Of a DNA stretch of 48,472 nucleotides, positions 18,212 through 48,472 are shown in pieces. The position numbers were made by a program, and so were the translations under genes. Each line of letters starts with the position of its first letter. Position 1 is the first letter of the stretch. The DNA is taken from contig JAKSLF010000021.1 in assembly GCA_024401355.1 (NCBI GenBank), positions 1 to 48,472 of the forward strand, written 5' to 3'. Source of the DNA: Bacteroidales bacterium (GTDB lineage: Bacteria > Bacteroidota > Bacteroidia > Bacteroidales > Marinilabiliaceae). The notes under the pieces were generated by a model. It searched no databases. It was given only the letters and a program-made list of their open reading frames with translations, and was not told the origin of the DNA.

Positions 18212-20272
18212 TCATTTTGCCATTACCTTGAACGAACCATAGCCCTCTTTAGTCTTCACTCTTACTATTACGCATCCTCCATATCTGCTCATGTCCATCA
18301 CTACGCTCTCTCTGTTTCCACTCTCTTCCGAAGCTATCTTCCTGCCCATAATGTCGAAGATGTCTATCTTTTCCAAGTCCATGGCTTTTATTTCATAGTC
18401 GCTCTCCGATCTCTTTATCATCTTTATGTCACGACCTGCCGTCAATTCTCTGATGGCACTCTGTTTTACTTCCACATACTTCAAACCTATCATGATGTCC
18501 TGACTTTTCTCCAAGCCCATGTATGTCGCTTTCTTCCATTCTCCACCTACCTGGAATCTGCCCCATTCACCATCTGCATGATACAAGGCAATTGTGTCTG
18601 TCATATATGAACTGTCAAATATGATTCCAGCATATACATCACTGCTTACATTGATTTTGTCTGTCAGTTCCACGTATGTCTGCGACTCTCGTGCCATCGT
18701 GTTCGCCACTTTTGTTCTTGACAACAATTCACCTGGCTCACCATCTTTGCATTCCCAGATGGCTATGTCAAACGTGTTGCCTTTCGTGCCTATCACTTTC
18801 GGCATTATCATCATTCCCTGTATGACTTTTGTCGAACTTCCACCTATCGCTATTCTCTGAGCCAAGGCTGTCGTTCCACAATTATTGTAACCAGCCACAT
18901 ATCCTTTTTTGTCTGCCGGTCTGTCGCATTTCATGTCTGCTTCATTGTCAAGGCTGTATACGACTCCATATTTTTCGTCTGACAACCATGCTCCATCCAT
19001 CTTTTTGATGTTTTCATTGTCCGGTGACAAGTACACTTTCATCTCATCCCAACTTTTCGAAAGCATCGCATAATAGTCATTCACCGGTCTGGTACACGTT
19101 GCCGAACCTCCCGACAATGTTCCTATCACTTTGTTTTCCAGATTGAACAATGCACTTCCCGACGAACCACCTTCTGTAGCTCCAGCCTCCCATCTCTCTA
19201 TCAGCCAATGGCTCGCTTTGTCAAACGATTCACCACTATTTGTCTTGTCCATGTCGTATGTCGCTCCGGGGGTTGCCGATTTCGCTTTCGATATCTTTTT
19301 AACGTCTGCATTCGGATGATGTATGCAATAAACTTCTCCCGACACTGTGTTTGAAGTGACATCCCAACCGGCCCAATATGGCATGTGCTTCGACGATGGC
19401 GCTTTTTTCAATTTCAGCAGCATCATGTCTCGCGTTTCCAGTCTGATCAGCACTTTTTCTATCTCTAATGTCGCTGTCATCGATGTCGTTGGTGACAAAT
19501 TCTGGCATACCGGCGACTCAAAATTAAACAAGGCAGTTCCACCAACAAAGCTTCCGTCAAGCACGTGAGCTGCTGTCAATATATATGGTGCACCATCTTG
19601 TCGTGTGTTGTTCATCAATGTGCCTGTTCCGTATGAGTTACCATTGCTGCCTTTTACTATAAGTCTGCACACCGACTGTTTCGTCATCTCACTTATATCA
19701 TCACATGTGACGTTCACTTCACAATTTCCAGATGATCCATAGCCTGATTTCAAACTCCTACCATGTGACTGCTGGTGCTCAGGCAACGACCTGAATCCTA
19801 CGCTCACCATATCTATCTTGAAGTCGGCTTTGGCAATGTCTCGTCCTCTGACTTCTACTATTATGGAGTCTCCAGCCATCGGGAATGTCGATATTCTTCC
19901 GTCCGATGTCATGTCTTCCGAGGTATACATCTGATACTGCTCTCCGTCCGGCGAAGTTACTGTTATATGGTCGTCTTCCCCCATCTTCAAGCCCTTGATG
20001 TCTACCGACATGTTCAGTGCCCAGTCCGCTCTCAATCCTAGCATCCATCGGTATGTTCCATCACTTTTAACCTCCAGAACACCCGAATTGTCTATACAAA
20101 AGTCACTCTTATTGCTATTCGCAAATAATATATCTCTCCCTTTGCTTTCTGCATACACATAGCGAGCACTCTCAGTCGTTACCCAGTCGATTTCTTCAAC
20201 TGACGTCTGAGCCGTCACATCACTTGCTACTAGCATCAATGCGGCTATTGCTATATGTACTTTCTCAGTCAT
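18212..20272 (-). CDS. secreted trypsin-like serine protease with T9SS-type C-terminal domain
   Basis: The 686-residue protein has a signal peptide (IAIAALMLVASDVTAQ). A chymotrypsin-fold protease domain lies near residues 195-410. The triad is visible: H236 in LTAAHVLDG, D282 in TRDMMLLKLKK, S371 in EGGSSGSALF. The GTLMNNTRQDGAPYILT context resembles lysyl-endopeptidase-type (S1) proteases. The last ~75 residues (IDIFDIMGRKIA, then YGGCVIVRVKTKEGYGSFKV) look like a type A sorting domain of the type IX secretion system, so the enzyme is probably exported to the surface. Gaps of 19-21 nt to the AGCS gene and menA suggest one transcript. Specificity is not certain. Confidence 0.85.
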   Translation of the reverse strand: MTEKVHIAIAALMLVASDVTAQTSVEEIDWVTTESARYVYAESKGRDILFANSNKSDFCIDNSGVLEVKSDGTYRWMLGLRADWALNMSVDIKGLKMGEDDHITVTSPDGEQYQMYTSEDMTSDGRISTFPMAGDSIIVEVRGRDIAKADFKIDMVSVGFRSLPEHQQSHGRSLKSGYGSSGNCEVNVTCDDISEMTKQSVCRLIVKGSNGNSYGTGTLMNNTRQDGAPYILTAAHVLDGSFVGGTALFNFESPVCQNLSPTTSMTATLEIEKVLIRLETRDMMLLKLKKAPSSKHMPYWAGWDVTSNTVSGEVYCIHHPNADVKKISKAKSATPGATYDMDKTNSGESFDKASHWLIERWEAGATEGGSSGSALFNLENKVIGTLSGGSATCTRPVNDYYAMLSKSWDEMKVYLSPDNENIKKMDGAWLSDEKYGVVYSLDNEADMKCDRPADKKGYVAGYNNCGTTALAQRIAIGGSSTKVIQGMMIMPKVIGTKGNTFDIAIWECKDGEPGELLSRTKVANTMARESQTYVELTDKINVSSDVYAGIIFDSSYMTDTIALYHADGEWGRFQVGGEWKKATYMGLEKSQDIMIGLKYVEVKQSAIRELTAGRDIKMIKRSESDYEIKAMDLEKIDIFDIMGRKIASEESGNRESVVMDMSRYGGCVIVRVKTKEGYGSFKVMAK

Positions 20273-36070: not shown

Positions 36071-36997
36071 ATGGGACAATTAAGAAAACATTTGTGGATA
36101 CTGACAAAACTAAGGCAGTATAAGAGACTAACGTTGGAGCAGATTAGCGACATGTGGCTTAATGATCTGGTGACTGGAGAAGAACTTACCAAGAGAACTT
36201 TCCATAAGTATCTGAGAGAAATAGAGGACTTGTTTGACATCAATATAGTAAACACCCGTTGTGGTGATTATGCTTACTACATCGAAGGTCTGGAAAGTCT
36301 GAAAAACAATGAATTCAGGACGTGGCTTCTCGATTCATACGCCGTGATGGATCAGCTACAGGTGGATAAACGTCTGCAGGGACGAGTATATTTTGAAGAC
36401 ATTCCATCGGGCCAGCAGTGGCTGACATTATTCCTAGAGGCAATACGTCAGAACAAGACAACAACCATCACATATCAGCGCTATGTTTATGGAGTTGAAA
36501 ACACCTACGACATAGAGCCTTATGCTCTGAAGCTTTTCAATCGTCGCTGGTATGTCATAGCGCGCAACCCTTCTCTTTCTGACAGAGAACAGAGCGAGGT
36601 GATAAGAATCTACTGTCTCGACAGAATGACGGATGTGAAGATTACGACAGTTGATTTCGTTGAGCCAGAGCCTGGAGAGATAGACAATATGTTTAAGGAT
36701 TGCTATGGCATACTGGCAGACGATAGCACGCCTGTTGAACGTGTAGTCATTAAGGCTTGGGACCCACAGTATAAATATCTCAGGTCGCTTCCTCTGCATA
36801 AATCCCAGAAGGAGATAGACCATGATGATGAATCGGCAACTTTTGAATATACAGTACGTCCAACATTCGACTTCTACCAGGCATTGTTGTCACAGACAGA
36901 CTCGATAGAAGTATTGGAACCACAGGCAATCAGAGACAATATGCGCAACTTTGCAAAAAACATTTATTACCACTATAAAGACGACGAAAAGAAATGA
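36071..36997 (+). CDS. WYL-domain transcriptional regulator
   Basis: The 308-residue protein has an N-terminal winged-helix (residues ~1-75, LRQYKRLTLEQISDMW and RTFHKYLREIEDLFDI). A WYL domain follows (~130-215, ITYQRYVYG, YDIEPYALKLFNRRWYVIAR and IRIYCLDRM). The C-terminal part (VRPTFDFYQALLSQTDSIEVLEP) matches the usual WYL C-terminal extension. Such proteins are ligand-sensing regulators that often control defence genes. It overlaps the exonuclease gene by 4 nt (ATGA), so the two are translationally coupled. This is the first gene of the accessory region. Confidence 0.92.
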   Translation: MGQLRKHLWILTKLRQYKRLTLEQISDMWLNDLVTGEELTKRTFHKYLREIEDLFDINIVNTRCGDYAYYIEGLESLKNNEFRTWLLDSYAVMDQLQVDKRLQGRVYFEDIPSGQQWLTLFLEAIRQNKTTTITYQRYVYGVENTYDIEPYALKLFNRRWYVIARNPSLSDREQSEVIRIYCLDRMTDVKITTVDFVEPEPGEIDNMFKDCYGILADDSTPVERVVIKAWDPQYKYLRSLPLHKSQKEIDHDDESATFEYTVRPTFDFYQALLSQTDSIEVLEPQAIRDNMRNFAKNIYYHYKDDEKK

Positions 36998-37548
36998 AGG
37001 AAGGAATCAGTTTTATAGCCATCGACTTTGAGACGGCAACAGGCAAGCGTTCATCAATATGCGAGGCAGGTATCTGTGTGGTAAAGGATGGTGAAATAAT
37101 AGAGACCCAATCGTGGCTGGTACGCCCTGAGGACAATCTCTATTCGTATTGGAATATCCAATGTCATGGCATTGAACCCAAGGATACAGAAAATGCTCCG
37201 GAGTGGCCAGTAATCTGGAAAGAATTGAAGCAATATCTGACAGAGATACCAGTATTGGTGGCTCACAATGCGGCATTCGATATGTCATGCATCCGCAAAG
37301 CCAATGAACTATACAGTCAGGAGAAGCCAGAGGCGACATTCTATTGTACACTGCGTGCAGCTCGACACAATTACAATTTCGGCACTAATACATTGGGCTA
37401 TCTCTGCGAGCAGTTCAACATTCCCGAAGGAACCCATCACCGAGCTGGAGATGATGCCGAAATGTGTGCCAGACTCTTTCTGCGCATCATAGAAGATGCT
37501 GGCGTGACTTCATTGGAAGAGTTGGAGTATTGTGGTGGGGAGTTGTGA
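36994..37548 (+). CDS. DEDDh 3'-5' exonuclease (DnaQ-like)
   Basis: The 184-residue protein is a single exonuclease domain. Visible residues are D and E in AIDFETATG (residues ~9-11), the middle aspartate in AHNAAFDMSCI (~95), and the late histidine and aspartate in HRAGDDAEMCARLF (~150-155). It resembles the polymerase III epsilon-like exonucleases that occur as stand-alone proteins. The product cannot be assigned to replication; its coupling to a WYL regulator by a 4-nt overlap suggests it acts together with it. A weak hairpin follows at 37553. Confidence 0.9.
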   Translation: MKEGISFIAIDFETATGKRSSICEAGICVVKDGEIIETQSWLVRPEDNLYSYWNIQCHGIEPKDTENAPEWPVIWKELKQYLTEIPVLVAHNAAFDMSCIRKANELYSQEKPEATFYCTLRAARHNYNFGTNTLGYLCEQFNIPEGTHHRAGDDAEMCARLFLRIIEDAGVTSLEELEYCGGEL

Positions 37549-37592: not shown

Positions 37593-37654
37593 GACATCAA
37601 GTAATAGAAAATAAATAGATTAAAACCGCATTACCATCGTTTCTACACTCAAAA

Positions 37655-37757
37655 CGTCGCAAAATATGCGTTATTTTTAGGGTTTCTTTGGTGATTCGAC
37701 ATTGTCTTTATAAATTTGTCGCAGAATTTGCGACGATATGCGTTATGAAATGTCGCA
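37655..37757. repeat. repeated GTCGCA / ATATGCGTTAT elements
   Basis: The gene-free stretch 37549-37876 contains ATATGCGTTAT twice (37664-37674 and 37736-37746) and GTCGCA three times. One copy belongs to a 17-bp dyad GTCGCA-N5-TGCGAC (37718-37734). The elements lie just left of the winged-helix scar at 37772, so they may be operator sites of a lost gene. Nothing else is visible in the stretch except the weak terminator and the scar. Confidence 0.55.
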
Positions 37758-37771
37758 CCTTCACACCTTTA

Positions 37772-37819
37772 TCGAATCTGCTCAATAAGTACTGCTCGTA
37801 TATAGTTGCGAGCAATTAA
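37772..37819 (+). pseudogene. 15-codon scar of a Fic-type winged-helix gene
   Basis: In frame this reads SNLLNKYCSYIVASN and stop, the same ending as the fragment at 43633-43932 (SNLLNKCCSYIVASN), with 3 differences in 51 bp. No upstream coding sequence remains. It marks the left edge of the first DUF262 cassette. Confidence 0.75.
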
Positions 37820-37822
37820 GCT
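37772..37822. repeat. left flank repeat, copy 1 (51 bp)
   Basis: It is 94% identical (48 of 51) to 43885-43935 in direct orientation. Each copy lies just left of the 3' end of a DUF262 pair and encodes the end of the same winged-helix gene. Similarity stops abruptly on the left of copy 1. Confidence 0.8.
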
Positions 37823-37876
37823 AATATAACATATCGCAATGGTAACGTGCCTAATCAGTGCGCTGAGGCTCTTGCA

Positions 37877-39874
37877 TTATGATGGATTGCTGCATGTTTT
37901 TTCGCTATGACAATTATCTTCTATGCCCAATTCATCAGCCAAAGTCTTTTTGCAATCTTTGGTAAAATCTTCTATGGTCTTTTTGTTCCAGGTTGATTCT
38001 TTTTTTGCCATTTCAAACATCTGCATCAGCTTTATGCTCTGTTTGCCTACATATTCATTGCCAGCACCATATTCTTCATATTTTGCTTTAGGCATCAGAT
38101 TGCTGAAACGAGAATTCATTGATGATGTTATGAGACACAAATTGCCAAATGAATTGACTGTTTTTTGATGTACCTTATGTTCAGGATCTTTTGCCGAATC
38201 TGAATTATCCTCGTATAGATATTTGTCATCCTTTAGATGCTGAGGATAAAAATGCTCAACTGAAGTACGATAGGTAAACTTGAAATCTTTGTACTTATTT
38301 TTATTATCACTCTTCCAAACAACAAAATCATAGAAGTTGAATACAAAGTTTTCTACTTCACAGCCTCGGTCAAGGCGACTAAAATCGTAACCCTCATCGG
38401 ACTTCAGATAATTTTCCAACATATACGATTTAGCTAGTTTCCATAGCCAATCATAGAAATCATTACTAGTCAACCTCGCCTCATTATCCACAATATAGTT
38501 TAGTGTATCATTCAGCCAATTCTTATACGTGTTCGATGTATACGAGAAGTGGAACATAGATTGAATCATCTCAAGGTCTGAATTTGTTTCTACATCCTCA
38601 TTCTCAGAACTCTTCGACTTAAATGTATTTACATAATTATTGCTCCTGTCATACTTTTGAATCTTCCACTTTCCGTCATTGTCGTCTTTGCTATCCGACT
38701 TCAATACGTAAATGTCAAAAAGACTTCTGACTCGAAGCAGAAAAACTATAAATTCTTTGGCAAAATCAGCCCTGGCGACCTCGTCGACAAGTTTTTTTTC
38801 AACCTTTTCAAACGACTGGAGCAATTGCTTGTCGTCAAGTATGATTTTGATGTCACGCCAGTCTTCAACATGTTTTTTTGCGACATAAATCGACAACGTC
38901 TGGAGCAAGAAATTCTGAAAGTCAATTATCGACTTGAAACGTTCTGGCTTTTCATTGTTTTGGGCGTCTCTCGCTATTTCATAACCTTCGAGATTCTTGT
39001 TTTTACCCCAGAATTCTTCGATTACCTTAGCAATATTCACCGCCTCTTTTTCAATCTTTTCAATTGTTATCTTATTATTCGCTCCTGATTGCTTGCCATT
39101 TTCTATTATTTGGTTGAGCATCGAGTCAAAATCAGAATCCAGAGGAGGCACGTTGCTACCTTTGTCTCCATAAAGCACGTTTCTGACATCAGCCTTAATA
39201 TTCATCATTGCATACGAATCCATATCAGCGCATGCTTCCCAAAGAATATTGAACAGACTGTGGGCTGTCGTCCTCATTTCTTCATCTTCATATTTCAGCA
39301 TGTTCATCAGTCGGGCCTTTAGAACCTCATGCTTCTCAAGTTGCTCACCTCGTGTATTCATTATCTCAAAGTAATGATTGAGGTCTGTATCCTTCGGTAT
39401 TTCTACCAGCAGTATCTTGACTTTTTCAAGGAGATATATGGTAAACTCATCGCTGTCACCATAATTCGCTTTTTGGAGAATGTGGTACATCTCATCTATC
39501 GAGGTATCTCCTTCACCAAGATTTTTCAGACTGTTCGTTGATTGCGCACGATGCTCAAATGACAGTTTTGTATTGGTAAGTTTTGAATCTATCTTAACTC
39601 CCTTGCTTTCCAATGCTCTGAACATAATGGTAAGGGTCGTGAGACGCTGTTGTCCGTCAACTACTTCATATAGGTTGTCCCCTTTGGAATAGACCACCAA
39701 AGAGCCTATATAATACGACCTTTCTTTATTGTCTACTATATAATCACGTATGTCATCTATCAACTGCTTTGCTTCTTTATGTGTCCAAGCATAGTCACGT
39801 TGATAAATTGGCACTATATATTGCTTTTCCTCTTCAAACAGGTGTTTGATGGACATCATTTTTAGTAATTCCAT
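37877..39874 (-). CDS. DUF262 protein with C-terminal DUF1524-like HNH nuclease region (pair A, second gene)
   Basis: The 665-residue protein has the DUF262 (ParB/sulfiredoxin-like NTPase) motifs VPIYQRDYAW (residues 21-30) and VDGQQRLTT (72-80). The C-terminus has a DUF1524-type HNH pattern: H541 in VEHFYPQH, N578 in FGNLCLI and N587 in SSMNSRFSN. This is the GmrSD/SspE kind of build, in which the NTPase part governs a DNA nuclease; in those families the target is modified or phage DNA. It starts 1 nt after the stop of the preceding DUF262 gene (TGA-T-ATG), so they are coupled. The defence role is inference from family and context. Confidence 0.82.
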   Translation of the reverse strand: MELLKMMSIKHLFEEEKQYIVPIYQRDYAWTHKEAKQLIDDIRDYIVDNKERSYYIGSLVVYSKGDNLYEVVDGQQRLTTLTIMFRALESKGVKIDSKLTNTKLSFEHRAQSTNSLKNLGEGDTSIDEMYHILQKANYGDSDEFTIYLLEKVKILLVEIPKDTDLNHYFEIMNTRGEQLEKHEVLKARLMNMLKYEDEEMRTTAHSLFNILWEACADMDSYAMMNIKADVRNVLYGDKGSNVPPLDSDFDSMLNQIIENGKQSGANNKITIEKIEKEAVNIAKVIEEFWGKNKNLEGYEIARDAQNNEKPERFKSIIDFQNFLLQTLSIYVAKKHVEDWRDIKIILDDKQLLQSFEKVEKKLVDEVARADFAKEFIVFLLRVRSLFDIYVLKSDSKDDNDGKWKIQKYDRSNNYVNTFKSKSSENEDVETNSDLEMIQSMFHFSYTSNTYKNWLNDTLNYIVDNEARLTSNDFYDWLWKLAKSYMLENYLKSDEGYDFSRLDRGCEVENFVFNFYDFVVWKSDNKNKYKDFKFTYRTSVEHFYPQHLKDDKYLYEDNSDSAKDPEHKVHQKTVNSFGNLCLITSSMNSRFSNLMPKAKYEEYGAGNEYVGKQSIKLMQMFEMAKKESTWNKKTIEDFTKDCKKTLADELGIEDNCHSEKTCSNPS

Positions 39875-39875
39875 A

Positions 39876-41315
39876 TCATTTTGCTTTATTCAATTCACCG
39901 AATCTATTTATTATACCCTCAAGTCCGCCAACACGTCTTCTCCCATTAGGGATTTCTTTTGATACACTATCTTGCGCAATGTTGATGACATCGTAAGGAT
40001 TGCGAGCCTCATGCATCTTGCGCAGTATGTTTCTATCATCTCCGCTAAGTGCAGCATTGATTATGGTACTTGCCCCAACAGTATAATTTTCCACTCTTAT
40101 AGTGTATGCCCAAATGAATATTTTGTTTATCACAGCATCCAATACATTTTCTCTGTCTTCTGTGCCGAATCGGTCAAGATAATACAATAGTGTCAGTTTC
40201 AAAAGTCCTCTGACTCTTTTGTCTCCCGTTCTATTTGCTCCAGCATAGCCGTAAATGGTATCAAAAGTGGCCTTTACATCACTATATTTCTCTCTTAGAT
40301 CTTCACTCGTTTTAAAGTTTGAATCTTTTTCATCGTGTCTCTTGAACAACATCATCCACTCAAACAATCTGTTGTAATGAGCTATCATGTCGAAGAAATG
40401 GCGTCCATTGATTATCTGGTCGTCAAAATTATAGGGGTATTCCACCTTTTTATCTTGCTTGATAGTCGGATCGGCATTAAGCATATCCACATATATTCTT
40501 GCCCTTAACTCCAATAGATAAAATGGATACCACGATTTCTCGTCTCCACAATCCACTCCTTTGAAAACGTCTATGTCGTTTTGCGTAAACTCATCGGCCC
40601 AACGACCTCCCGGCCACATTTTTGCACGATAAAGGTATTTGAACAGGTTGTGCCTTCTTTTGCCAAGTTGTTCCCAATCCTGAATTCGCTTCAGGTCTGC
40701 ATCTGTTCTTTCTGGTATAGCCCTGAGATGGAAGGCCTTGAGCAAATCTTCTGGTTCCAAAGCCTTGCCACGAGCATTCTGTGAGTCGAAGAATTGGAAT
40801 GCTTCCGACAGGTCTTTTATAACAACAACCGAAAGTTGACATTTAGTCATTATAAAGTCAAAAATATTCTTCGAGATACTACCTTTACGTTCATCTATTG
40901 TTTTGATGTTTCGCGCAAGGTTATCTATGGAATACTTGTTTGTATACTCGACCTTTTTAAGAAATCCCATTACCTTTTCCTCATAGCCATTAATTCCCAA
41001 ATTTTTGCCCGCTATACATATTATAAGCGACAAAGTTGTCACTCGCTGCTGACCATCAACAATATTAAACACACCATTATTGTCTTCATGAAGCACCAAT
41101 GTACCTAAACGATATTGTTCCACTTTCTTTTCCGCAGTAGCAAAGTGGATAATGTCATTAATCAACTGATTAACGTTCCTTGCCTTCCATTTATATGGTC
41201 GCTGATATTCTGGTATCCTCAATTGTTCAAAGGGCAAATCCTTTGTGGCAAGAACACCAAGACCTACCTCATTCTTTGCTTTGACTGTTTGAACTATTTG
41301 ATCGAATATACTCAT
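39876..41315 (-). CDS. DUF262 protein without HNH region (pair A, first gene)
   Basis: The 479-residue protein (ATG at 41315; an upstream TTG would add two residues) has IPEYQRPYKW (34-43) and VDGQQRVTT (86-94). The C-terminal half is helical with no H...N...N pattern, so it lacks the DUF1524-type nuclease found in its partner. It is the promoter-proximal gene of pair A. Upstream lies the conserved repeat with the Fic 3' end. It shares little beyond the DUF262 motifs with the matching gene of pair B. Confidence 0.85.
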   Translation of the reverse strand: MSIFDQIVQTVKAKNEVGLGVLATKDLPFEQLRIPEYQRPYKWKARNVNQLINDIIHFATAEKKVEQYRLGTLVLHEDNNGVFNIVDGQQRVTTLSLIICIAGKNLGINGYEEKVMGFLKKVEYTNKYSIDNLARNIKTIDERKGSISKNIFDFIMTKCQLSVVVIKDLSEAFQFFDSQNARGKALEPEDLLKAFHLRAIPERTDADLKRIQDWEQLGKRRHNLFKYLYRAKMWPGGRWADEFTQNDIDVFKGVDCGDEKSWYPFYLLELRARIYVDMLNADPTIKQDKKVEYPYNFDDQIINGRHFFDMIAHYNRLFEWMMLFKRHDEKDSNFKTSEDLREKYSDVKATFDTIYGYAGANRTGDKRVRGLLKLTLLYYLDRFGTEDRENVLDAVINKIFIWAYTIRVENYTVGASTIINAALSGDDRNILRKMHEARNPYDVINIAQDSVSKEIPNGRRRVGGLEGIINRFGELNKAK

Positions 41316-41400
41316 ATACAACTATTTAGAATATATACTAAAGTCTTGCTTGTAAAATATAACGAAGATTGATTAGTTATTCAACGCCACTATACTTTTT

Positions 41401-41604
41401 CACTCTGCTCGCAAAGTAAAAACACAGCTATGCAGAAAACGGACATACGTTTCATAAATACCCACATCAATCAGTATTCAACTCGAAATTTGTACTGCGG
41501 CCGCCCTCTTCTGTTTTTTTTTTAGCAACCCTTTCTCCAGTAAATCTGTGATATCTCGCAGGGCTGTAGCCTGTGATGAGTGAGTCATCTTTGCCCACTT
41601 TGAA
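41401..41604. repeat. right flank repeat, copy 1 (~204 bp)
   Basis: It matches 48271-48472 in direct orientation at about 90% (some 20 differences and a 2-bp length change). It contains the 3' end of a Fic-type gene, a conserved gap and, next to the DUF262 side, TTACTTTGCGAGCAGAG on the minus strand, a near -7 box (41412-41419) kept in both copies. Similarity stops just beyond 41400. The true repeat may extend further right, but copy 2 is cut by the window edge. Confidence 0.88.
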
Positions 41605-41741
41605 GTATTGAGTTTCCCCTCAAAATTGCCCCAAAGCTTATTAAGGACTTTCGTCTGGCGTTCGTTTAGAGGCACTTCACGGTATTTCTCCCAGAAGTGC
41701 GACTTGGCAAGTACACGGTCGACAGTGGATTGTATATCTAT
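41478..41741 (-). pseudogene. Fic-type gene remnant (C-terminal part, frameshifted)
   Basis: The frame reads STVDRVLAKSHFWEKYREVP, LNERQTKVLNKLWGNFEGKL, SKWAKMTHSSQATALRDI and TDLLEKGLLKK. This is the C-terminal linker and winged helix of a Fic/DOC-family protein with no Fic motif left. It has no start codon in frame: a TGA lies just upstream at 41742-41744. A run of ten A (minus strand) replaces eight bases of copy 2 and shifts the end to QKRAAAVQISS instead of the GGRSTN(F)EL ending. So the gene carries both an internal deletion and a terminal frameshift. Confidence 0.8.
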
Positions 41742-41768
41742 TCATCGTCATATACTATGATTTGATGG

Positions 41769-41799
41769 CAAATATAGTCAAATGATGAGAATAAACACA
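41769..41799 (-). promoter_or_regulatory. promoter of the Fic-type gene
   Basis: On the minus strand TATATTTG (41769-41776) is a good -7 box, with TGTG 19 nt upstream (41796-41799). It overlaps the first operator dyad (41783-41811). It points at the Fic remnant, so it is what is left of that gene's start. Confidence 0.55.
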
Positions 41800-41845
41800 T
41801 TATTCGCGTCATATTTTGACGAGAATAACTCCTCTATTCGCATCA
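41783..41845. promoter_or_regulatory. tandem operator: two copies of a 29-bp dyad
   Basis: Four 11-bp sites of consensus TGAYGMGAATA alternate in direction: TGATGAGAATA (41783-41793), TATTCGCGTCA (41801-41811), TGACGAGAATA (41817-41827) and TATTCGCATCA (41835-41845). Sites 1-2 and 3-4 are each separated by 7 nt, so two 29-bp dyads repeat at a 34-bp period. The array lies in the divergent gap between the Fic remnant and the AAA-type gene and overlaps the Fic promoter. Sequence fit is direct; the binding protein is unknown. Confidence 0.8.
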
Positions 41846-41941
41846 AACCGCATTTTTTTCTACAACAATTCAAACCTGTGTCAAAATTCTGCACACCCCA
41901 CCCTTTATTTTGTAATCACAAACCAATAAAAACATACTAAT

Positions 41942-42823
41942 ATGGAACAGACAACAATACATTACATCAAGGAAGCGGTTCGGAACCTTGAGAATTGCCA
42001 ATTACAAGGCCCCAAATACAAAGAGGCGTATCTGCTCCTTCGGAAGATTAGGGATATTCTTGACTTTCAAGACACCGACGAGGCAGCTATTTTTTCAATA
42101 GCATTTACCCGGATGGCAGATGGTAATTACACAAATTTGTCCGATATCGCAAGTCATATCGGTTGCTCGCCTATCGATATTCTTGCGTATACTACAGTAT
42201 TGTCACGACTCTCTAAGTCAGGTTATATTCAACCTAATGGACGCAGAGTGTCGAACATCATTATGCAGGATTTCGGTATAGATGATGTTGTATCAAGTGC
42301 TATAATCGAGAACCGCCCAGTGGAGATAAAAGCCAATGTTAGCAATACTCAGTTATCAAAATATGACTTTTGCGAAGCCATCGGAAAGACTGTTATCGAA
42401 AAGGCTATTGGAGTTTTCCGTGGCACTCTTCCTCTTATTAACCGCACAGCAAAACTAGAGGACGAATGCCCCCACCTGTCATTCATACTCAATCTTAAAG
42501 CGCTTGCTCCTGATATACAGGACCGCATCTTATTCTATGACGTTTGTTTTGATACTTTTGCTGACCGAATCTTTTCCGACTTAAACGATACAGTTAGTTA
42601 TATATATGCCCCCCGTAGTACAATATATATCGGCAATCATAAAAGAAACGATATCTATCATAGTCTGTATAAGGGTTACCATCCTCTCATAAAGGCCGGC
42701 CTGATTGAACGTTTGGGTAAATGGGGTATCGTTCTGACACACAAAGGAATGGAGTTGTTTTTCGAGGATGATTTGTCTGCCGTCTGTCCTTCTTTGAAAT
42801 GGAAGGACATTTATATGTTCTGA
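41942..42823 (+). CDS. truncated AAA-type ATPase gene (N-terminal half only)
   Basis: The 293-residue product (MEQTTIHYIKEAV) resembles, from memory, the N-terminal half of a Bacteroidales AAA+ protein: helical start, winged-helix-like SDIASHIGCSPIDILAYTTV and a second winged-helix-like LIKAGLIERLGKWGIVLTHKG. There is no Walker A or B motif. Directly after the stop codon, in another frame, 30 codons read as the C-terminal end of the same family (42825-42914). So the AAA core has been deleted and the residual protein ends in the foreign WKDIYMF. A possible -7 (TTATTTTG, 41905-41912) and the tandem operator lie upstream. Confidence 0.7.
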   Translation: MEQTTIHYIKEAVRNLENCQLQGPKYKEAYLLLRKIRDILDFQDTDEAAIFSIAFTRMADGNYTNLSDIASHIGCSPIDILAYTTVLSRLSKSGYIQPNGRRVSNIIMQDFGIDDVVSSAIIENRPVEIKANVSNTQLSKYDFCEAIGKTVIEKAIGVFRGTLPLINRTAKLEDECPHLSFILNLKALAPDIQDRILFYDVCFDTFADRIFSDLNDTVSYIYAPRSTIYIGNHKRNDIYHSLYKGYHPLIKAGLIERLGKWGIVLTHKGMELFFEDDLSAVCPSLKWKDIYMF

Positions 42824-42824
42824 A

Positions 42825-42914
42825 GTAGTTAATATATCTGATTTATTTCACGACCGCCATGAATATGAACGAATCCTGAGCAAGGGAAACAACAAGGTGG
42901 GATTCGGGAAATAA
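42825..42914 (+). pseudogene. 3' remnant of the AAA-type gene
   Basis: Thirty codons in the +1 frame relative to the preceding gene end in HEYERILSKGNNKVGFGK and stop, the kind of C-terminal tail seen on AAA proteins of this family, from memory. It supports an internal deletion with a frame change at about 42800-42825. It ends 2 nt from the convergent HAD gene. Confidence 0.6.
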
Positions 42915-42916
42915 GT

Positions 42917-43432
42917 CTATAACGACAAAAGATACGCAATCACATTGTCTGCCATTGCCATGGTTAGACCCGTCTGAGGGTTTGACAAGAAAAGATGTGA
43001 CTTTTGTTCATCTGAAGCAATTGGTTCGTCGTCAATGATTGCATAGTTGCTGATTCTGTGAGTCTTGAGATAGTCGGATATCTCAAGACTCTTGGGGTGA
43101 GGAATATTGAAATTGTCCAACGTCGACAGATCAGCATTCAACAGCCATTCGTCCGACACTCCATTGCGTGTCACGTCGTTTATTTCTCCCATATATCCCC
43201 TTTCTTTCCACATCTGGCGCAATCCATCGAGGCCGTATATCCCCTTCCATGATGAGATTACGACAATCTTTGCACCTGTCGCACGGACAATTCTATAAAG
43301 ATTGTCCATTGCAACAGGCGAAAAAAGACGTCCATAATTATCCTCGCGAGGTTTGTCCGCCTCTAGAAGTTCGTGCTGATAGTCTTCTGTATTGAGAACT
43401 CCATCGAAATCTAGAAAGATAATTTTACTCAT
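42917..43432 (-). CDS. HAD-family hydrolase (RNA-repair-associated type)
   Basis: The 171-residue protein has HAD motif I FLDFDGVLN (D8, D10), motif II VVISSWK with the serine, and a late YAIIDDEP acidic pair. It lacks a cap and resembles the HAD domain found in Swiss-army-knife RNA repair proteins, from memory. Substrate unknown. It converges on the AAA remnant with a 2-nt gap. The 200 nt upstream (43433-43632) hold no gene: the one reading frame tried is broken by stops. Confidence 0.8.
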   Translation of the reverse strand: MSKIIFLDFDGVLNTEDYQHELLEADKPREDNYGRLFSPVAMDNLYRIVRATGAKIVVISSWKGIYGLDGLRQMWKERGYMGEINDVTRNGVSDEWLLNADLSTLDNFNIPHPKSLEISDYLKTHRISNYAIIDDEPIASDEQKSHLFLSNPQTGLTMAMADNVIAYLLSL

Positions 43433-43632
43433 GTGGCATTGTTAGATTAGTCAAAGTTACTTTTATTATCTGCAATTCCTAAACTTTGAACCCCTCGATG
43501 ATTTGATATATGCGCGTCTCTCTTCCCTCTCTTATGTATTCGGAAATATCATCACTTGTTACCATTTTGGAAACACGACAGCCATTAAGGCGACAGCTAT
43601 TATCTGTTTCAAAACTGCAATAATCGACATAA

Positions 43633-43932
43633 GACACAGCCATACGTGACATTCAGGATTTATTAGACAAGAACATCTTGGTAGAGGACATTCCGGGAGC
43701 AAAGCGACCAAGTTACTCCATTGTCTATGACGCAGAAGACCTTACACAGTTCTTTACTGAGGTGAACATCATCGAAGAGAATGGTGTTCACTATCTCAAA
43801 GCATTGTTCAAAGGTCGGAAACCTGTAAGCGAAAGGATTCTGAAGCTCGATGCAGAGAGATTTGAGAAAGGAGATCTTCCACTGTCGAATCTGCTCAATA
43901 AGTGCTGCTCGTATATAGTCGCCAGCAATTAA
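43633..43932 (+). pseudogene. 5'-truncated winged-helix gene fragment
   Basis: The frame opens after a TAA at 43630-43632 with DTAIRDIQDLLDKNILV, close to the Fic winged helix TALRDITDLLEKGLL, then IPGAKRPSYSIVYDAED and a tail ending SNLLNKCCSYIVASN. There is no proper ATG; a TTG at 43678 could start an 84-residue product. The tail after the winged helix (EDLTQFFTEVN...KGDLPLSNLL) is not recognised. Its last 51 bp are repeated at 37772. It faces the 3' end of DUF262 pair B. Confidence 0.65.
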
Positions 43933-43935
43933 GCT
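43885..43935. repeat. left flank repeat, copy 2 (51 bp)
   Basis: Direct repeat of 37772-37822 with 3 mismatches. Homologous recombination between the copies would remove 6113 bp including pair A. Confidence 0.8.
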
Positions 43936-44103
43936 GCAATGTTCGATTCCGTATGGAAGACGTGCTCACAGCCCCAAATGATCGCGTAAACAATATTGTG
44001 CGGACCGTGTGTTGTGATACAAAAGCCAGTAGGTATCAATGGTAATCCCGTTGCAACTGAGGCGTGGATAAGTGAGTAATATTAGGCTGGTGTGTTATAT
44101 GTA

Positions 44104-44149
44104 TAAAAACAACGGATACTATTGAGGAATAGTATCCGTTTATTTTTTT
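44104..44149 (-). terminator. strong hairpin terminator after DUF262 pair B
   Basis: AACGGATACTATT and AATAGTATCCGTT form a perfect 13-bp stem with a 4-nt loop. On the minus strand it is followed by a T-rich stretch (TGTTTTTATAC), and on the plus strand by TTTATTTTTTT, so it can work both ways. It lies between the winged-helix fragment and pair B. The rest of 43936-44103 shows no gene. Confidence 0.85.
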
Positions 44150-44172
44150 GTGGCTGTATTTATACGATTAGA

Positions 44173-46443
44173 CTAATCGGTTGTCGTTGATGCGTTTGGT
44201 TCAGCATCTTTTTTATACTCTTCTGCCAAACGTAGCAGATTCTCTTTGAAATCATTTTCTAATAGGCTGGCTGCATTACGGAAACAATAATATTTCTCCT
44301 CTTCTTTCTTGCTCAAACTATCTTTTTCGATATAGTTGAATTTCTTGCCCATAAGGTATATAGTATTATCTCTATACCACTGATAATGGCTATCTTCAAA
44401 TGTAAAATTAATATCGCTGCCAAATAGGAAGTCAGTTCTATCTACTATTGCGCTAGGAACCACTTTTATTCCTTCTGTATGAAGTAGCATTTTGTCACGC
44501 TTACCTGCATTCAAGAATACACCAGGACCACTTGGGTATATGGCATAATGGTTATGATACCATCTAATATGTGACGTTGGAATATTCTTAATAACAAAAT
44601 CAAGCAGCATGGTATTTGACAACTGATAAATATACTTTAACTGGTTATCGGGATTGGGAATAACATCCTTTATATCAGTTTCACCCATCAAAATATCATG
44701 TACGGGCGAATATATATCATTCCTTAGTAAATAATACCGCCATGACGAGCCATAGTTATTGAATGTCGTAGGGTGATAATCTAATACTTTGGCATAATTG
44801 TCCGCAGTAAATCGGCTGAAAAGTGCCTTAAGGAGATTCGCGTTGTCAAATTCATCTCGAACTGCAGGTTTGTCATTATTCTGCGCATCTTCCTTAAAGT
44901 ATTTCTTGGCATTTGCCAGTTTTGTATGGAAGTTGCTCCAATCATCTGTCACTTCTCCATTTGAATTTCTATAGAGAAAACGTATGGAGCCATTGAAGAA
45001 TGAATATTTTTCTGCAGCAATGATAATATCTTTCCACTGGAGTTCGAGAATCTTATTAGCCTTTACTCGTTCTTCTTCTACTTGTTCCTTATTAAATTTT
45101 GGCAATTCCCCATTATCAATAAGGTATTGGTATATGTTGCTATTATCAATTTTGTCAATTGCCTTACAGATACCACCAAAAGACTCATCATCTATTGTCG
45201 TATTCTTTATCAGGTTTCTGAATACTCGTATCCATTCCTTGTATTCATCCACATTTATGGCTTGATAACTCGTCAGCTGAGCATATTTCAATACCGCAAA
45301 AAATCTTGCTCTATGAGAATATTCCGGCTTGGTGCTTTTTATCAATTCATCAATAAAGAATTTCTTATCATCGGCAAACCTATCATCATTATCTTTGATT
45401 GTTTTATAGTTATCAACTAACCAATCTGTATTCTTCTTAAATGATTTCCGAACTTCTTCATTCCTATACACCTTATCATATTCGTCAAAACTGATAAACG
45501 GGTTATCTACATCATCATCCTTGACTTTGCTTTTCTTAATCGGGAAAGACTCTTCAGCCAACCTAGAGTACACAAAAGTTTCTCGATTATCAGAACAGCG
45601 TCGGGCGTGTTCCTCTTCAGCCAACCTAGAGTACACAAAAGTATGTTCGTTTATATAGTTCATAAAATAGACATCAGTCTCTTTGACAGAGAACTTAAGC
45701 ATAAAATCCATCCATTTCGAATCAAAATCGTTCCTAAATTCAGGATTGTACTTATCAATAAACTTTGCTTTAAAATTCTCAAACGTCGTCAACTGTCGAC
45801 CGCGTGAGTTCATCTTAACATAAGTCTTCCCGTCTGTACCTTTATCAAGATGGATAATATCATACTTGATGCCAGACTGACTTGAGAAAAGAATAGAATA
45901 TAGGCCTCCACAATCCTTAGGATATTGTCTATCTATCTCTTCAAGCATCACATGCATACCCTTTACAGTAGGATCACATTCCCAAATACTAAAATAATCT
46001 TCGTGCCCCTTGATTATCTTGTCTACAGTTTTCCCTACTCCGTATGTCACTTTATACAATAAATCAACAAACTGCGATGAGTAACTGCGTGTGTTCCATT
46101 TAAATTTCTTAAGCACCTCTTTGTAGTCCGATAGTCTGTCCTCTCTCCACGCGACGTACCAATGAAGCAAAAAAATAGTAGTTAGTCTCTGCTGTCCATC
46201 AACCGCTATGAATTTCTTTTCATTCTCATCGTAAGAACCAAACACAAGACCAGAATGGCATTCCCGATGTTCATTTATTGCCTTATATAGGTCTCCGACA
46301 AATGTCATTCGTATGTTATCTATTCTGCTATTACCCGTTCGTCCCTGAGCGTAATCTCGTTGATAACATGGCACAACAATATCATACTTGTTAATCTCCT
46401 CCCAAAACGAAGTGTTCGTTTTTATTTTCTCCTCTACAGCCAT
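44173..46443 (-). CDS. DUF262 protein without HNH region (pair B, second gene)
   Basis: The 756-residue protein has VPCYQRDYAQ (24-33) and VDGQQRLTT (81-89); a Gln replaces the usual Trp at the end of the first motif. The C-terminal half is long and has no DUF1524-type H...N...N pattern. An in-frame direct repeat duplicates TFVYSRLAEE (45550-45642). It starts 1 nt after the stop of its partner (TAG-C-ATG). It is not closely related to the pair A proteins outside the motifs. Confidence 0.85.
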   Translation of the reverse strand: MAVEEKIKTNTSFWEEINKYDIVVPCYQRDYAQGRTGNSRIDNIRMTFVGDLYKAINEHRECHSGLVFGSYDENEKKFIAVDGQQRLTTIFLLHWYVAWREDRLSDYKEVLKKFKWNTRSYSSQFVDLLYKVTYGVGKTVDKIIKGHEDYFSIWECDPTVKGMHVMLEEIDRQYPKDCGGLYSILFSSQSGIKYDIIHLDKGTDGKTYVKMNSRGRQLTTFENFKAKFIDKYNPEFRNDFDSKWMDFMLKFSVKETDVYFMNYINEHTFVYSRLAEEEHARRCSDNRETFVYSRLAEESFPIKKSKVKDDDVDNPFISFDEYDKVYRNEEVRKSFKKNTDWLVDNYKTIKDNDDRFADDKKFFIDELIKSTKPEYSHRARFFAVLKYAQLTSYQAINVDEYKEWIRVFRNLIKNTTIDDESFGGICKAIDKIDNSNIYQYLIDNGELPKFNKEQVEEERVKANKILELQWKDIIIAAEKYSFFNGSIRFLYRNSNGEVTDDWSNFHTKLANAKKYFKEDAQNNDKPAVRDEFDNANLLKALFSRFTADNYAKVLDYHPTTFNNYGSSWRYYLLRNDIYSPVHDILMGETDIKDVIPNPDNQLKYIYQLSNTMLLDFVIKNIPTSHIRWYHNHYAIYPSGPGVFLNAGKRDKMLLHTEGIKVVPSAIVDRTDFLFGSDINFTFEDSHYQWYRDNTIYLMGKKFNYIEKDSLSKKEEEKYYCFRNAASLLENDFKENLLRLAEEYKKDAEPNASTTTD
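45550..45642. repeat. 30-bp direct repeat inside the DUF262 gene
   Basis: Positions 45550-45579 and 45613-45642 are identical over 30 bp at a distance of 63 bp, so 21 codons are inserted in frame and the peptide TFVYSRLAEE appears twice. Confidence 0.9.
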
Positions 46444-46444
46444 G

Positions 46445-48226
46445 CTATTTTAATCTATTTAATGTGTTGATAATTGCATCAATGTAATTTTCTCTGTCTG
46501 ATTTCTCATTCCCGTCGTAGGCATAATCTTTTTCCCACTTGTAGAAATGTCCTGGCATTGGAGTATACACTTTCATGAAAACATTCTGCGTTCCAAGAGG
46601 TACAAAACTTCCTGACTTGACTCTATCCATAATGATTCGTCGTTTAGTAGAAAACGGAGATACCCTATAAGCTGCAGACCTATTTATATTGGCATTTAGC
46701 AATACGATATTTCCAATACTGTTCTGATCTACATTGTCATGACCCGACAAATCGCCTTCTATTAAGGTTATTATATCATTATACATCTCTTTAAATTCTT
46801 CATCTTTCAGGTTAGATAGAGTCGCTGATACATTCTTAAGATTGTCATCAGTATCTTTTGCCTCTCTGACATAACACATGTATTTTTCTAGTTTTTCTTT
46901 ATCAATTTTTTCTTTATCAATTTTTTCTTCTAACATCTGACTATCTATTTCAAGGCCCTTCATCCACAATATCTTTTCCACCTTACTTTTGAGAGATTCA
47001 GATGCCGTCGCATGAATATGCTCCTTATCCCAATCTTCTTTCTTGTAAAGGTCAAAATGGAACTTGTCGTTAAATGCGTACTCTTTATTCTTGTCGACAG
47101 ACAATGAACAAAGAATATTAAATAATAATAACACATTCTTAGTCCTACCATCCTTATATTCCATTCTTCTTATTTCGTCATCGGGTGGTATTGTCTCAAT
47201 CACTCTTTTTCTTATTTCTTCCTTAAAGCCAGCCAGAGCCTTGTGTTCTCTATTAAGCCGCCAGATTTCATGTAACTCATTGATGCTTTTATTCTCGATA
47301 AGATACCCAATAAGATTGTATAAATATTTGTCATTATACCAACACATCATACGATTGAATACTGCCTGTATTGAGTTCCATATCTCTCTTATCGACTCTT
47401 TCTTATGTTTTCTAACAATCTCATTGAACGTATGCTGCTCGTCCTTCTCCCTATCTGACCTCTTTGTGCCACAATAAAGATCAAGCAAAAGTTCTATCCT
47501 GTTATACTCCTTAAAATAATCACTGTCAGCCTTGACAAGAAACAGGAAAAATTCGTCGTTTTGTAGTTTATACTCCATCTCATCCCATTCACATGCCATT
47601 CGTTCTATGGACGTACTATCTGTATTTGTCATAATGTATGCCTTGACAAGCTCTGCATTTGTAAGACTTATCTTTGCATTATTAAGTCTCTCGAAATGAG
47701 CAGGTCCATCTTCAGGATTATCAAGTTCATACCAAATAATCTTGACATTCTTTTTGAGGTTATTGATGAATTTTCCGACCTCACTTGTGTGTCGATTAAT
47801 AGCGGTAATTGCCTGATTGAAGTAATACGTATCGCACGTTTCATAAATGGTCGGATTAACCACATCTGACCCTTTGTTTAACTTTTGCAAATAATTATTG
47901 CTTTTATCCCTTGATTCATACTCTATCTCATATAGAGGATACTTCGCCGTGTTGAGAATTAGCCATATCGTTGTCAATCTCTGTTGTCCATCCACAAGTA
48001 TATATTCATTAGACATTTTATCTTTGCGAGTAACAACAACTGGCTGCAGACAATAGTCAGAGAGGTCATTCTCGTCAATTTCACAAATGTCTTCAATAAG
48101 ATGCTCTACATCCGTTTCCCTCCACTTATACCCACGCTGATAGCTAGGTATAAAGAACTTATATTTAGGACTAACGTTTTCCTGTTCTATAAGTTCACAT
48201 ATAGATATTAACTTAATCTTTGCCAT
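46445..48226 (-). CDS. DUF262 protein with C-terminal DUF1524-like HNH region (pair B, first gene)
   Basis: The 593-residue protein has IPSYQRGYKW (26-35) and VDGQQRLTT (78-86). The C-terminus has a DUF1524-like pattern: H403 in DKEHIHATAS, N506 in SIGNIVLL and N515 in NANINRSAA, followed by STKRRIIMDR. A lysine-rich linker (KIDKEKIDKEKLEKY) between them comes from a 15-bp tandem repeat. It is the promoter-proximal gene of pair B; the HNH partner comes first here, the reverse of pair A. Upstream lies the second copy of the Fic-containing repeat. Confidence 0.83.
   Translation of the reverse strand: MAKIKLISICELIEQENVSPKYKFFIPSYQRGYKWRETDVEHLIEDICEIDENDLSDYCLQPVVVTRKDKMSNEYILVDGQQRLTTIWLILNTAKYPLYEIEYESRDKSNNYLQKLNKGSDVVNPTIYETCDTYYFNQAITAINRHTSEVGKFINNLKKNVKIIWYELDNPEDGPAHFERLNNAKISLTNAELVKAYIMTNTDSTSIERMACEWDEMEYKLQNDEFFLFLVKADSDYFKEYNRIELLLDLYCGTKRSDREKDEQHTFNEIVRKHKKESIREIWNSIQAVFNRMMCWYNDKYLYNLIGYLIENKSINELHEIWRLNREHKALAGFKEEIRKRVIETIPPDDEIRRMEYKDGRTKNVLLLFNILCSLSVDKNKEYAFNDKFHFDLYKKEDWDKEHIHATASESLKSKVEKILWMKGLEIDSQMLEEKIDKEKIDKEKLEKYMCYVREAKDTDDNLKNVSATLSNLKDEEFKEMYNDIITLIEGDLSGHDNVDQNSIGNIVLLNANINRSAAYRVSPFSTKRRIIMDRVKSGSFVPLGTQNVFMKVYTPMPGHFYKWEKDYAYDGNEKSDRENYIDAIINTLNRLK
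46896..46925. repeat. 15-bp tandem repeat (x2) in the DUF262-HNH gene
   Basis: TCTTTATCAATTTTT occurs twice in tandem on the plus strand and encodes DKEKI twice in a linker between domains. In-frame changes in copy number would be tolerated. Confidence 0.85.
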
Positions 48227-48270
48227 ATAACAATCTATTTACCTTACAAATAATTTTTAATATAGATTTT

Positions 48271-48472
48271 TACTCTGCTCGCAAAGTAAAACCATAGCTA
48301 TGCAGAAAACGGACATACGTTTCATAAATCCCCATATCAATCAATATTCAGTTCGTAATTTGTACTGCGGCCACCCTCTTCTGTTTTCTTGAGCAACCCT
48401 TTCTCCAGTAAATCTGTGATGTCTCGCAGAGCTGTAGCCTGGGACGAATGAGTCATTTTTGCCCACTTTGAA
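48271..48472. repeat. right flank repeat, copy 2 (cut by the window edge)
   Basis: Direct repeat of 41401-41604 at about 90% identity. It includes the intact 3' end of a Fic-type gene and a near -7 box TTACTTTG on the minus strand (48282-48289). Confidence 0.88.
48337..48472 (-). CDS. 3' end of a Fic-family gene (partial)
   Basis: The frame enters from the right edge as SKWAKMTHSSQATALRDI, TDLLEKGLLKK and ends TEEGGRSTNYELNID and stop. This is the winged-helix tail typical of Fic/DOC-family proteins, whose Fic domain AMPylates or otherwise modifies targets; that domain lies outside the window. Unlike copy 1 the frame is intact here. It is 110 nt upstream of pair B on the same strand and probably forms one locus with it. 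Confidence 0.75.
   Translation of the reverse strand, partial: SKWAKMTHSSQATALRDITDLLEKGLLKKTEEGGRSTNYELNID

Follow-up and report, generated by a model that had tools for sequence, protein, structure and literature searches.

The window analysed here is a whole draft-genome contig of 48,472 nucleotides from a Bacteroidales bacterium (G000:C14; the source assembly G000 comprises 2.9 Mb in 69 contigs and is 85% complete), and from 36 kb to its end it carries two pairs of adjacent DUF262 genes, W1 and W2, enclosed by like flanks. It is likely that this region is a recombining defence island that swaps two-gene, type IV-restriction-like DUF262 operons. Exchange of such pairs as cassettes had been proposed in a first-pass annotation of the sequence, and the proposal is largely supported and can be sharpened: different cargo stands behind shared flanks, genes of the pairs are chimeric, and the two genes of a pair are linked.

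Two unlike DUF262 pairs between like flanks

On the right side of the two units, positions 41391-41604 and 48261-48472 form a single alignment of 214 nt with 89.7% identity (E 5e-79), which appeared in the repeat search as two adjoining repeats of 130 nt (90%) and 89 nt (91%). On the left side, positions 37772-37822 and 43885-43935 agree in 48/51 nt (94%, E 4e-17). The two operons themselves showed no DNA similarity among their four DUF262 genes in all six comparisons (blastn, E 1e-3), confirming the earlier description of two pairs in one set of flanks and indicating that the genes are not duplicates at the DNA level. Best alignments of the four proteins reach 26-35% identity and are confined to the N-terminal DUF262 part. 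The features that make up the two units are the following.

37650..37823, + strand: Fic2 relic, roughly 104 bp from upstream of the gene followed by roughly its last 51 bp, containing the left flank repeat of unit 1
37877..39874, - strand: W1b, 665 aa, second gene of pair 1, DUF262 and DUF1524 (GmrSD_N and GmrSD_C; Pfam 7.7e-36 and 5.4e-13)
39876..41321, - strand: W1a, 481 aa, first gene of pair 1, DUF262 and DUF7834 (Pfam 1.3e-31 and 8.9e-47)
41391..41604, - strand: unit 1's repeat on the right, made up of the intergenic gap and the 3' end of Fic1 (repeat alignment)
41467..41751, - strand: Fic1 pseudogene, in which roughly codons 1-6 are fused to about codon 282 (against intact Fic1, L020:16268-17377)
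41942..42823, + strand: AAA+ ATPase gene with internal deletion, 293 of about 696 aa left (intact copy L020:17566-19656)
43635..43935, + strand: Fic2 relic, last 301 bp, containing the left flank repeat of unit 2
44173..46443, - strand: W2b, 756 aa, second gene of pair 2, DUF262 of the 'QRDYAQGR' kind (Pfam GmrSD_N 2.4e-16; alignment A5; model with a predicted local distance difference test score, pLDDT, of 82.9)
46445..48226, - strand: W2a, 593 aa, first gene of pair 2, DUF262 and a His-Me-finger-like C-terminus (Pfam 5.8e-32; alignment A6)
48261..48472, - strand: unit 2's repeat on the right, made up of the gap and the 3' end of Fic1 and truncated where the contig stops (repeat alignment)

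The right flank had been assigned to a Fic-type gene and its adjoining gap, and this assignment stands for what is here called Fic1, whereas the supposed winged-helix gene on the left is in fact the 3' end, encoding the C-terminus, of another Fic gene, Fic2. Complete Fic2 (429 aa, L024:758-2047) exists elsewhere, with intact copies on G000:C63 and G065:C33. Both flanks are thus ends of two different SoFic-like Fic genes with the architecture DUF4172-Fic, which match the PADLOC SoFic profile (Fic1 1.4e-46, Fic2 1.1e-44) but score 61 and 56 bits with the NCBIfam SoFic equivalog, whose cut-off is 550. Compared with intact copies, unit 1 lacks 826 bp of Fic1 (junction 41732/41733) and about 1.2 kb of the AAA+ gene beside it. 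Because Fic1, AAA+ and Fic2 all show deletions relative to intact copies, the flanks are leftovers of neighbouring genes, and the reading frames of the pairs have meanwhile remained open. The Fic1 gene of unit 2 is unreadable, as the contig end falls inside its repeat.

Different pairs at the same site in related genomes

When 71 genomes of the family were probed with both flank repeats, the Fic1 end with its gap was matched in 11 (three at >=200 nt, that is at least 200 nt, and at least 86% identity, namely the source genome G000, G064 and G065; eight weakly) and the Fic2 end in 3. Five copies of the Fic1 end in G000 (two), G064 (two, one of them short) and G065 (one) all precede a DUF262 pair, and these are four different pairs, so that the pair found at these flanks is not constant. 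Besides W1 and W2 of the window, pairs are named X in G064, Y in G065, and P and Q in the lineage of G055 and G058; W1 is a type-1 pair, of the DUF7834 kind, and W2, X, Y, P and Q are type-2 pairs.

The separate assembly of G064 contains unit 2 with its left neighbours on contig C75, where the truncated AAA gene, the HAD gene, the Fic2 tail, W2 and Fic1 are 95.5% identical to the window over 6.7 kb. Left of this shared block lies W1 in the window and pair X in G064:C75. In G065, Fic1 is followed by the third type-2 pair, Y. Between G064 and G065, nucleotide identity amounts to 96.6% for Fic1, 94.5% for the WYL gene, 93.7% for the exonuclease gene, 92.3% for glnA and 74.8% for the AAA gene, and drops to 48.7% and 46.0% for the first and second DUF262 gene (DUF262a, DUF262b). 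The cargo taken to be displaced keeps DNA homologous to the 5' part of the active unit: 214-338 nt at 89-90% in the case of W1 and about 205 nt at 85-86% in the case of X.

In another lineage of the same genus, represented by G055 and G058, the type-2 pair follows an AAA+ gene, and no Fic match was found near these pairs in the stretches read. The AAA genes of G055 and G058 are 93.0% identical in nucleotides, the genes of their pairs 49.8% and 54.0%, and identity returns to 87% over 500 nt across the pair end; elsewhere the two genomes share 96% in secA, 91% in gyrA and 81% in glnA. Constant flanks with differing cargo are seen with W1 versus X beside the shared block, with the pairs of G064 and G065 behind Fic1 and with the pairs behind AAA+ in G055/G058. 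A Bacteroidales metagenome-assembled genome (MAG) from goat reticulum, L123, combines a WYL gene, an AAA+ gene, a PLD gene, a type-2 pair, an exonuclease gene and a type-1 pair in one stretch, and 377 nt are repeated at 91.8% just after each of its two unlike pairs.

Breakpoints within genes and linkage of the pair

Comparison of type-2 genes along their length places the breakpoints inside the DUF262 genes, which sharpens the cassette-exchange reading. For W2a against X, Y and L118, a distant Salinivirgaceae MAG obtained from sheep rumen, the identities are 86%, 81% and 60% in codons 1-36 and 47%, 46% and 63% from codon 61 on. Similarly, codons 1-36 of Xa are 86% identical to W2 and 53-57% to L119/L120, and from codon 61 on the relation is reversed (47% vs 56-57%). 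At the other end of the pair, Pb is closer to L136 than to Q before its last 240 codons (80% vs 52%) and closer to Q in its last 60 codons (50% vs 89%), with an intervening stretch near neither (45%, 46%). In the case of Xb, the first part is nearer to L119/L120 (55-56%; Y 48%) and the last 240 codons are nearer to Y (66-68% vs 37-48%). The affinity of the 3' end of the second gene thus flips in two cases, X/Y and P/Q, and not in W2. At fourfold-degenerate sites W2, X and Y are alike at 18/25 positions in the first 40 codons and at 25/96 in the remainder, and 120 random pairs of the wider family, used as controls, gave 151/529 and 1506/5334; this argues against constraint and suggests that the 5' likeness reflects history.

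That the pair behaves as a unit, as had been supposed, is supported by a scan of 84,980 species genomes with a type-2 second gene as query, from which the best 80 loci were kept. A separate second gene is present in 78 of them, with the first gene directly upstream in 76/78; no partner gene was seen in the remaining 2/78. Distances among first genes (T2a) and second genes (T2b) are strongly correlated over 67 loci (Mantel r 0.835, a value reached by 0/2000 permutations), and for W2, P and Q the nearest relatives of both genes occur in distant genomes (W2: L118, 60/46% amino acid identity; P and Q: L136, 70/64%, and L123, 65/59%). In a Victivallis MAG the two type-2 genes are fused into one frame of 1262 aa (L187:1878-5666; T2a part 126-633, T2b part 643-1111), which fits a joint action of the two proteins. 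Concerning type-1 pairs, W1a is followed by W1b at a distance of 1 base in one operon, and DUF7834 genes occur in 10 of 295 genomes of the order, with a W1b-like gene next on the same strand in 9/10, the window included; the frame of the tenth runs off its locus.

The following course of events would account for these patterns. DUF262 operons would be exchanged through ordinary homologous recombination, the agent that we infer, for which the resident locus would provide a 5' dock consisting of the upstream defence gene (Fic1, or the AAA+ ATPase in the other lineage) and the intergenic gap and, for type-2 pairs, also roughly codons 1-36 of DUF262a. With X/Y and P/Q the resident locus would additionally provide a 3' dock, formed by 60 to 240 codons at the end of the second gene. 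About 3 to 4 kb of interior would be imported from other genomes and move as one linked pair, and replaced pairs and broken flank genes would remain beside the new unit, so that unit 1 would have originated by displacement and the window would now show two units.

Several observations weigh against this reading. Other regions of G064 and G065 are less alike than the flanks (secA 74.5%, gyrA 83%, a fourth region 76.7%), and since C75 resembles G065 more closely (glnA 92%) than do other contigs of G064, C75 is possibly mis-binned or transferred and its flanks, too, may have travelled; the contrast between flanks and cargo in G064/G065 stands in either case. The left flank is not specific for the pairs, because intact Fic2 on the contigs G000:C63 and G065:C33 has no DUF262 gene beside it as far as the sequence was read, and neither contig is among those listed by the genus-wide DUF262 search. 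W2b displays no 3' dock, its last 240 codons being 39-48% identical to all five genes compared; codons 1-36 of P resemble the distant L136 (75%) and the locus-mate Q (76%) equally; and the 5' contrast of Y is weaker (73% to L123, 78-81% to W2/X). The fourfold-site counts for W2, X and Y are small. Both genes have the same nearest neighbour in only 31/67 loci, which include W2, P and Q and exclude X and Y. Finally, the genomes are drafts, the contig of the window ends inside the repeat, and unit 1 with pair W1 was found in the source assembly only.

Among other explanations, the insertion of mobile cassettes with their own conserved Fic/gap ends at a hotspot, instead of recombination in resident flanks, is unlikely. 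It would agree with the 6.7-kb block, which at 95.5% stands out from the WYL, exonuclease and glnA genes (76-78%) and secA (73%) of the window and G064 and so points to a recent transfer. However, the boundary of the exchanged part varies, lying in the Fic1 gap for W1, near codon 36 for W2/X/Y and at the AAA gene for P/Q, the ends are gene fragments, and no recombinase was found among the genes scanned, in line with the first-pass statement that an integrase is absent. Tandem duplication of a unit Fic2-pair-Fic1-AAA-HAD, after which diversifying selection would have made the pair diverge rapidly with no import, appears quite improbable. The gene order is indeed repeated in the window and in G064, and within G064 the AAA copies (80.6%) and HAD copies (100% over the compared stretch) indicate that local duplication or conversion happens, but W1 and W2 differ in architecture and have the nuclease-bearing gene in opposite positions, the closest relatives of both genes of W2, P and Q are not found at the same locus, and fourfold identity falls from 18/25 to 25/96. 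An artefact of assembly or binning, in which loci of two strains were collapsed or joined in the draft genome, might be suspected from a contig that ends in a repeat, 85% completeness, a unit 1 seen once and a perhaps mis-binned G064:C75, and is very improbable given that unit 2 and its left neighbours recur in a separate assembly and that similar patterns occur in G055/G058, G064/G065 and L123.

Predicted function, known systems and the surrounding island

All four DUF262 proteins of the window (4/4) score above the Pfam cut-off for GmrSD_N. The motifs QR and DGQQR are invariant in alignments A5 and A6, and FxxxN can be read by eye in W1a, W1b and W2a and YxxxN in W2b. W1b contains a DUF1524 His-Me finger (GmrSD_C 5.4e-13). 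The C-terminus of W2a has no Pfam match; its residues E402-H403, N506 and N515 are invariant over the 43 sequences of A6, a pattern as would be expected of a His-Me finger, and its relative Ya matches GmrSD_C at 2e-5. In W2b, no nuclease domain was recognised by Pfam and no histidine occurs among the invariant columns of A5. From these domain assignments, each pair appears to combine a DUF262 protein whose C-terminus is of nuclease type (W1b, W2a) with another that lacks such a part (W1a, W2b). Ya of G065 (L022:1246-3039, the first gene of Y) has DAQQR instead of DGQQR, which might weaken its use of nucleoside triphosphates (NTPs). Predicted models best match SspE and DndI, and BrxU weakly. 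SspE and DndI are solved DUF262 enzymes and effectors of phosphorothioation systems that are not known to act with a second DUF262 partner; no phosphorothioation system was seen here.

The earlier remark that no described system has this layout does not hold for the pair, since two-gene DUF262 operons are known: according to the available text of PMC11411939, TgvAB, a GmrSD-like type IV restriction system of Vibrio cholerae, consists of adjacent DUF262 genes, one with and one without DUF1524, and acts on T-even phages, an activity that requires both genes as well as the DGQQR motif of each and the DUF1524 histidine. By analogy with TgvAB, each pair is probably a two-protein, NTP-driven, modification-sensing nuclease, in which NTP-dependent DUF262 domains would sense modified or foreign DNA and cutting would follow; an anti-phage function, with specificity as the selected trait, would be in keeping with this analogy. 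Compared by domains and order and not by sequence, W1 has the TgvAB order, with the gene lacking DUF1524 first, but W1a carries DUF7834. In contrast, the nuclease-like gene precedes the 'QRDYAQGR' partner in the type-2 pairs (W2, X, Y, P, Q), an order opposite to that of TgvAB in 76/78 type-2 loci, the other two having no visible partner. Moreover, TgvAB, as described in that text, lies in a type I restriction-modification operon, and the pairs of the window do not.

Horizontal movement of GmrSD systems and turnover of defence islands are likewise known already. In the accessible part of Machnicka et al. 2015 (PMC4619093), entire systems are reported to move horizontally, systems to be assembled from S and D domains that differ in source, and DUF262 genes to cluster with GmrSD homologs; that part describes no swapping of two-gene DUF262 operons between unchanged flanks with breakpoints within genes, and no report of cassette exchange of DUF262 pairs was found in the literature searched. 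The exchange pattern resembles the orphan modules of contact-dependent inhibition (CDI)/Rhs systems as presented in excerpts of PMC4927057, in which the 5' part is constant, the 3' cargo is exchanged and older cargo stays beside the new with the shared stretch still attached. It differs in that the cargo here is a restriction-like enzyme pair and not a toxin-immunity pair, that a 3' dock exists in some cases and that no integrase or transposase is present among the genes scanned. The pattern also fits an exchange route that the consulted passages of PMC10250203 describe for the core defence hotspots of Pseudomonas aeruginosa. In these hotspots variable defence cargo lies between constant flanks, and recombination in the flanks is the proposed means of transfer. 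Here, however, the flanks are accessory defence genes or their relics and not core genes, and the unit consists of a single pair, whose boundaries fall within its genes.

In our judgement, replacement of a system without a mobile element is seldom visible at the base level, although turnover of defence islands as such is known. Here, a single gene can be divided into what is resident and what is imported, which outlines the exchange unit as the linked pair minus its ends and makes testable the question of whether the swapped interior sets which phages are restricted. If the reading is true, bacteria could refresh an immune weapon via ordinary recombination and leave the DNA at its edges unchanged. 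Tentatively, and as a possibility on which we would not rely, the locus might be a cassette-loading immune locus. Its resident dock (a SoFic-like or AAA+ gene upstream, codons 1-36 of DUF262a and sometimes a further 3' dock within DUF262b) would take up interchangeable cores of a type IV-restriction-like kind from a wider pool, probably of Bacteroidales, and its displaced pairs would serve as a reserve that RecA could recall via the direct repeats, so that restriction specificity would be switched much as toxins are in CDI/Rhs loci.

A layout Fic - DUF262 - DUF262 had been suggested as that of the system. This is not supported as a general layout: raw counts near the 78 type-2 pairs gave WYL 15, AAA+ 13, exonuclease 12, PLD 5 and Fic 2, DUF262 was found near 0/20 of the Fic1 relatives read in the order, and in the other lineage of the genus an AAA+ gene takes the place of Fic. 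Fic is thus a local partner and not a component of a general system. Genes of the exonuclease family lie immediately upstream in 7/69 type-2 pairs, and the survey outlines a widespread two-gene DUF262 family of reversed order that is at times found beside WYL, DEDDh exonuclease, AAA+ and PLD genes. From 36 kb on, the island of the window reads WYL, DEDDh exonuclease, Fic2 relic, W1, Fic1 relic and truncated AAA+, followed by HAD, an ATPase-gene relic, the second Fic2 relic, W2 and the Fic1 end at the contig end. The features not yet listed are the following.

36071..36997, + strand: WYL-domain regulator, 308 aa (Pfam WYL 3.6e-12)
36994..37548, + strand: DEDDh 3'-5' exonuclease, 184 aa (Pfam RNase_T 5.8e-24)
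42917..43432, - strand: HAD protein (HAD_SAK_2), 171 aa (Pfam 1.4e-24)
43541..43635, - strand: ATPase-gene relic (AAA_15/AAA_21 and FtsK_gamma relative), 80% over 95 nt to L022:6028-6122, which sits within a gene for 352 aa (L022:5750-6808)

The two HAD copies of G064 (L020:10842-11235 and 19607-20000) are 100% identical over 394 nt and the adjoining AAA copies 80.6%, apparently the outcome of a recent conversion or duplication. Within W2b, a 30-bp exact repeat with a spacing of 63 bp occurs at 45550-45642, where the copy of the gene in G064 differs in length. The stretch L025:553-1212 matches many places in G065 and is probably a repeated or mobile gene. In L123, a small open reading frame (87/88 aa) directly follows each DUF262 pair (12428-12691 and 19848-20114), and no credible Pfam match was obtained for its first copy. 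The palindrome TGTGCCA-N5-TGGCACA, with 0-2 mismatches, is a candidate operator that occurs among the island genes of L123 at 4225, 7884, 12338, 12845, 14184 and 19790; at some of these positions a TATCTTTG-like box comes next.

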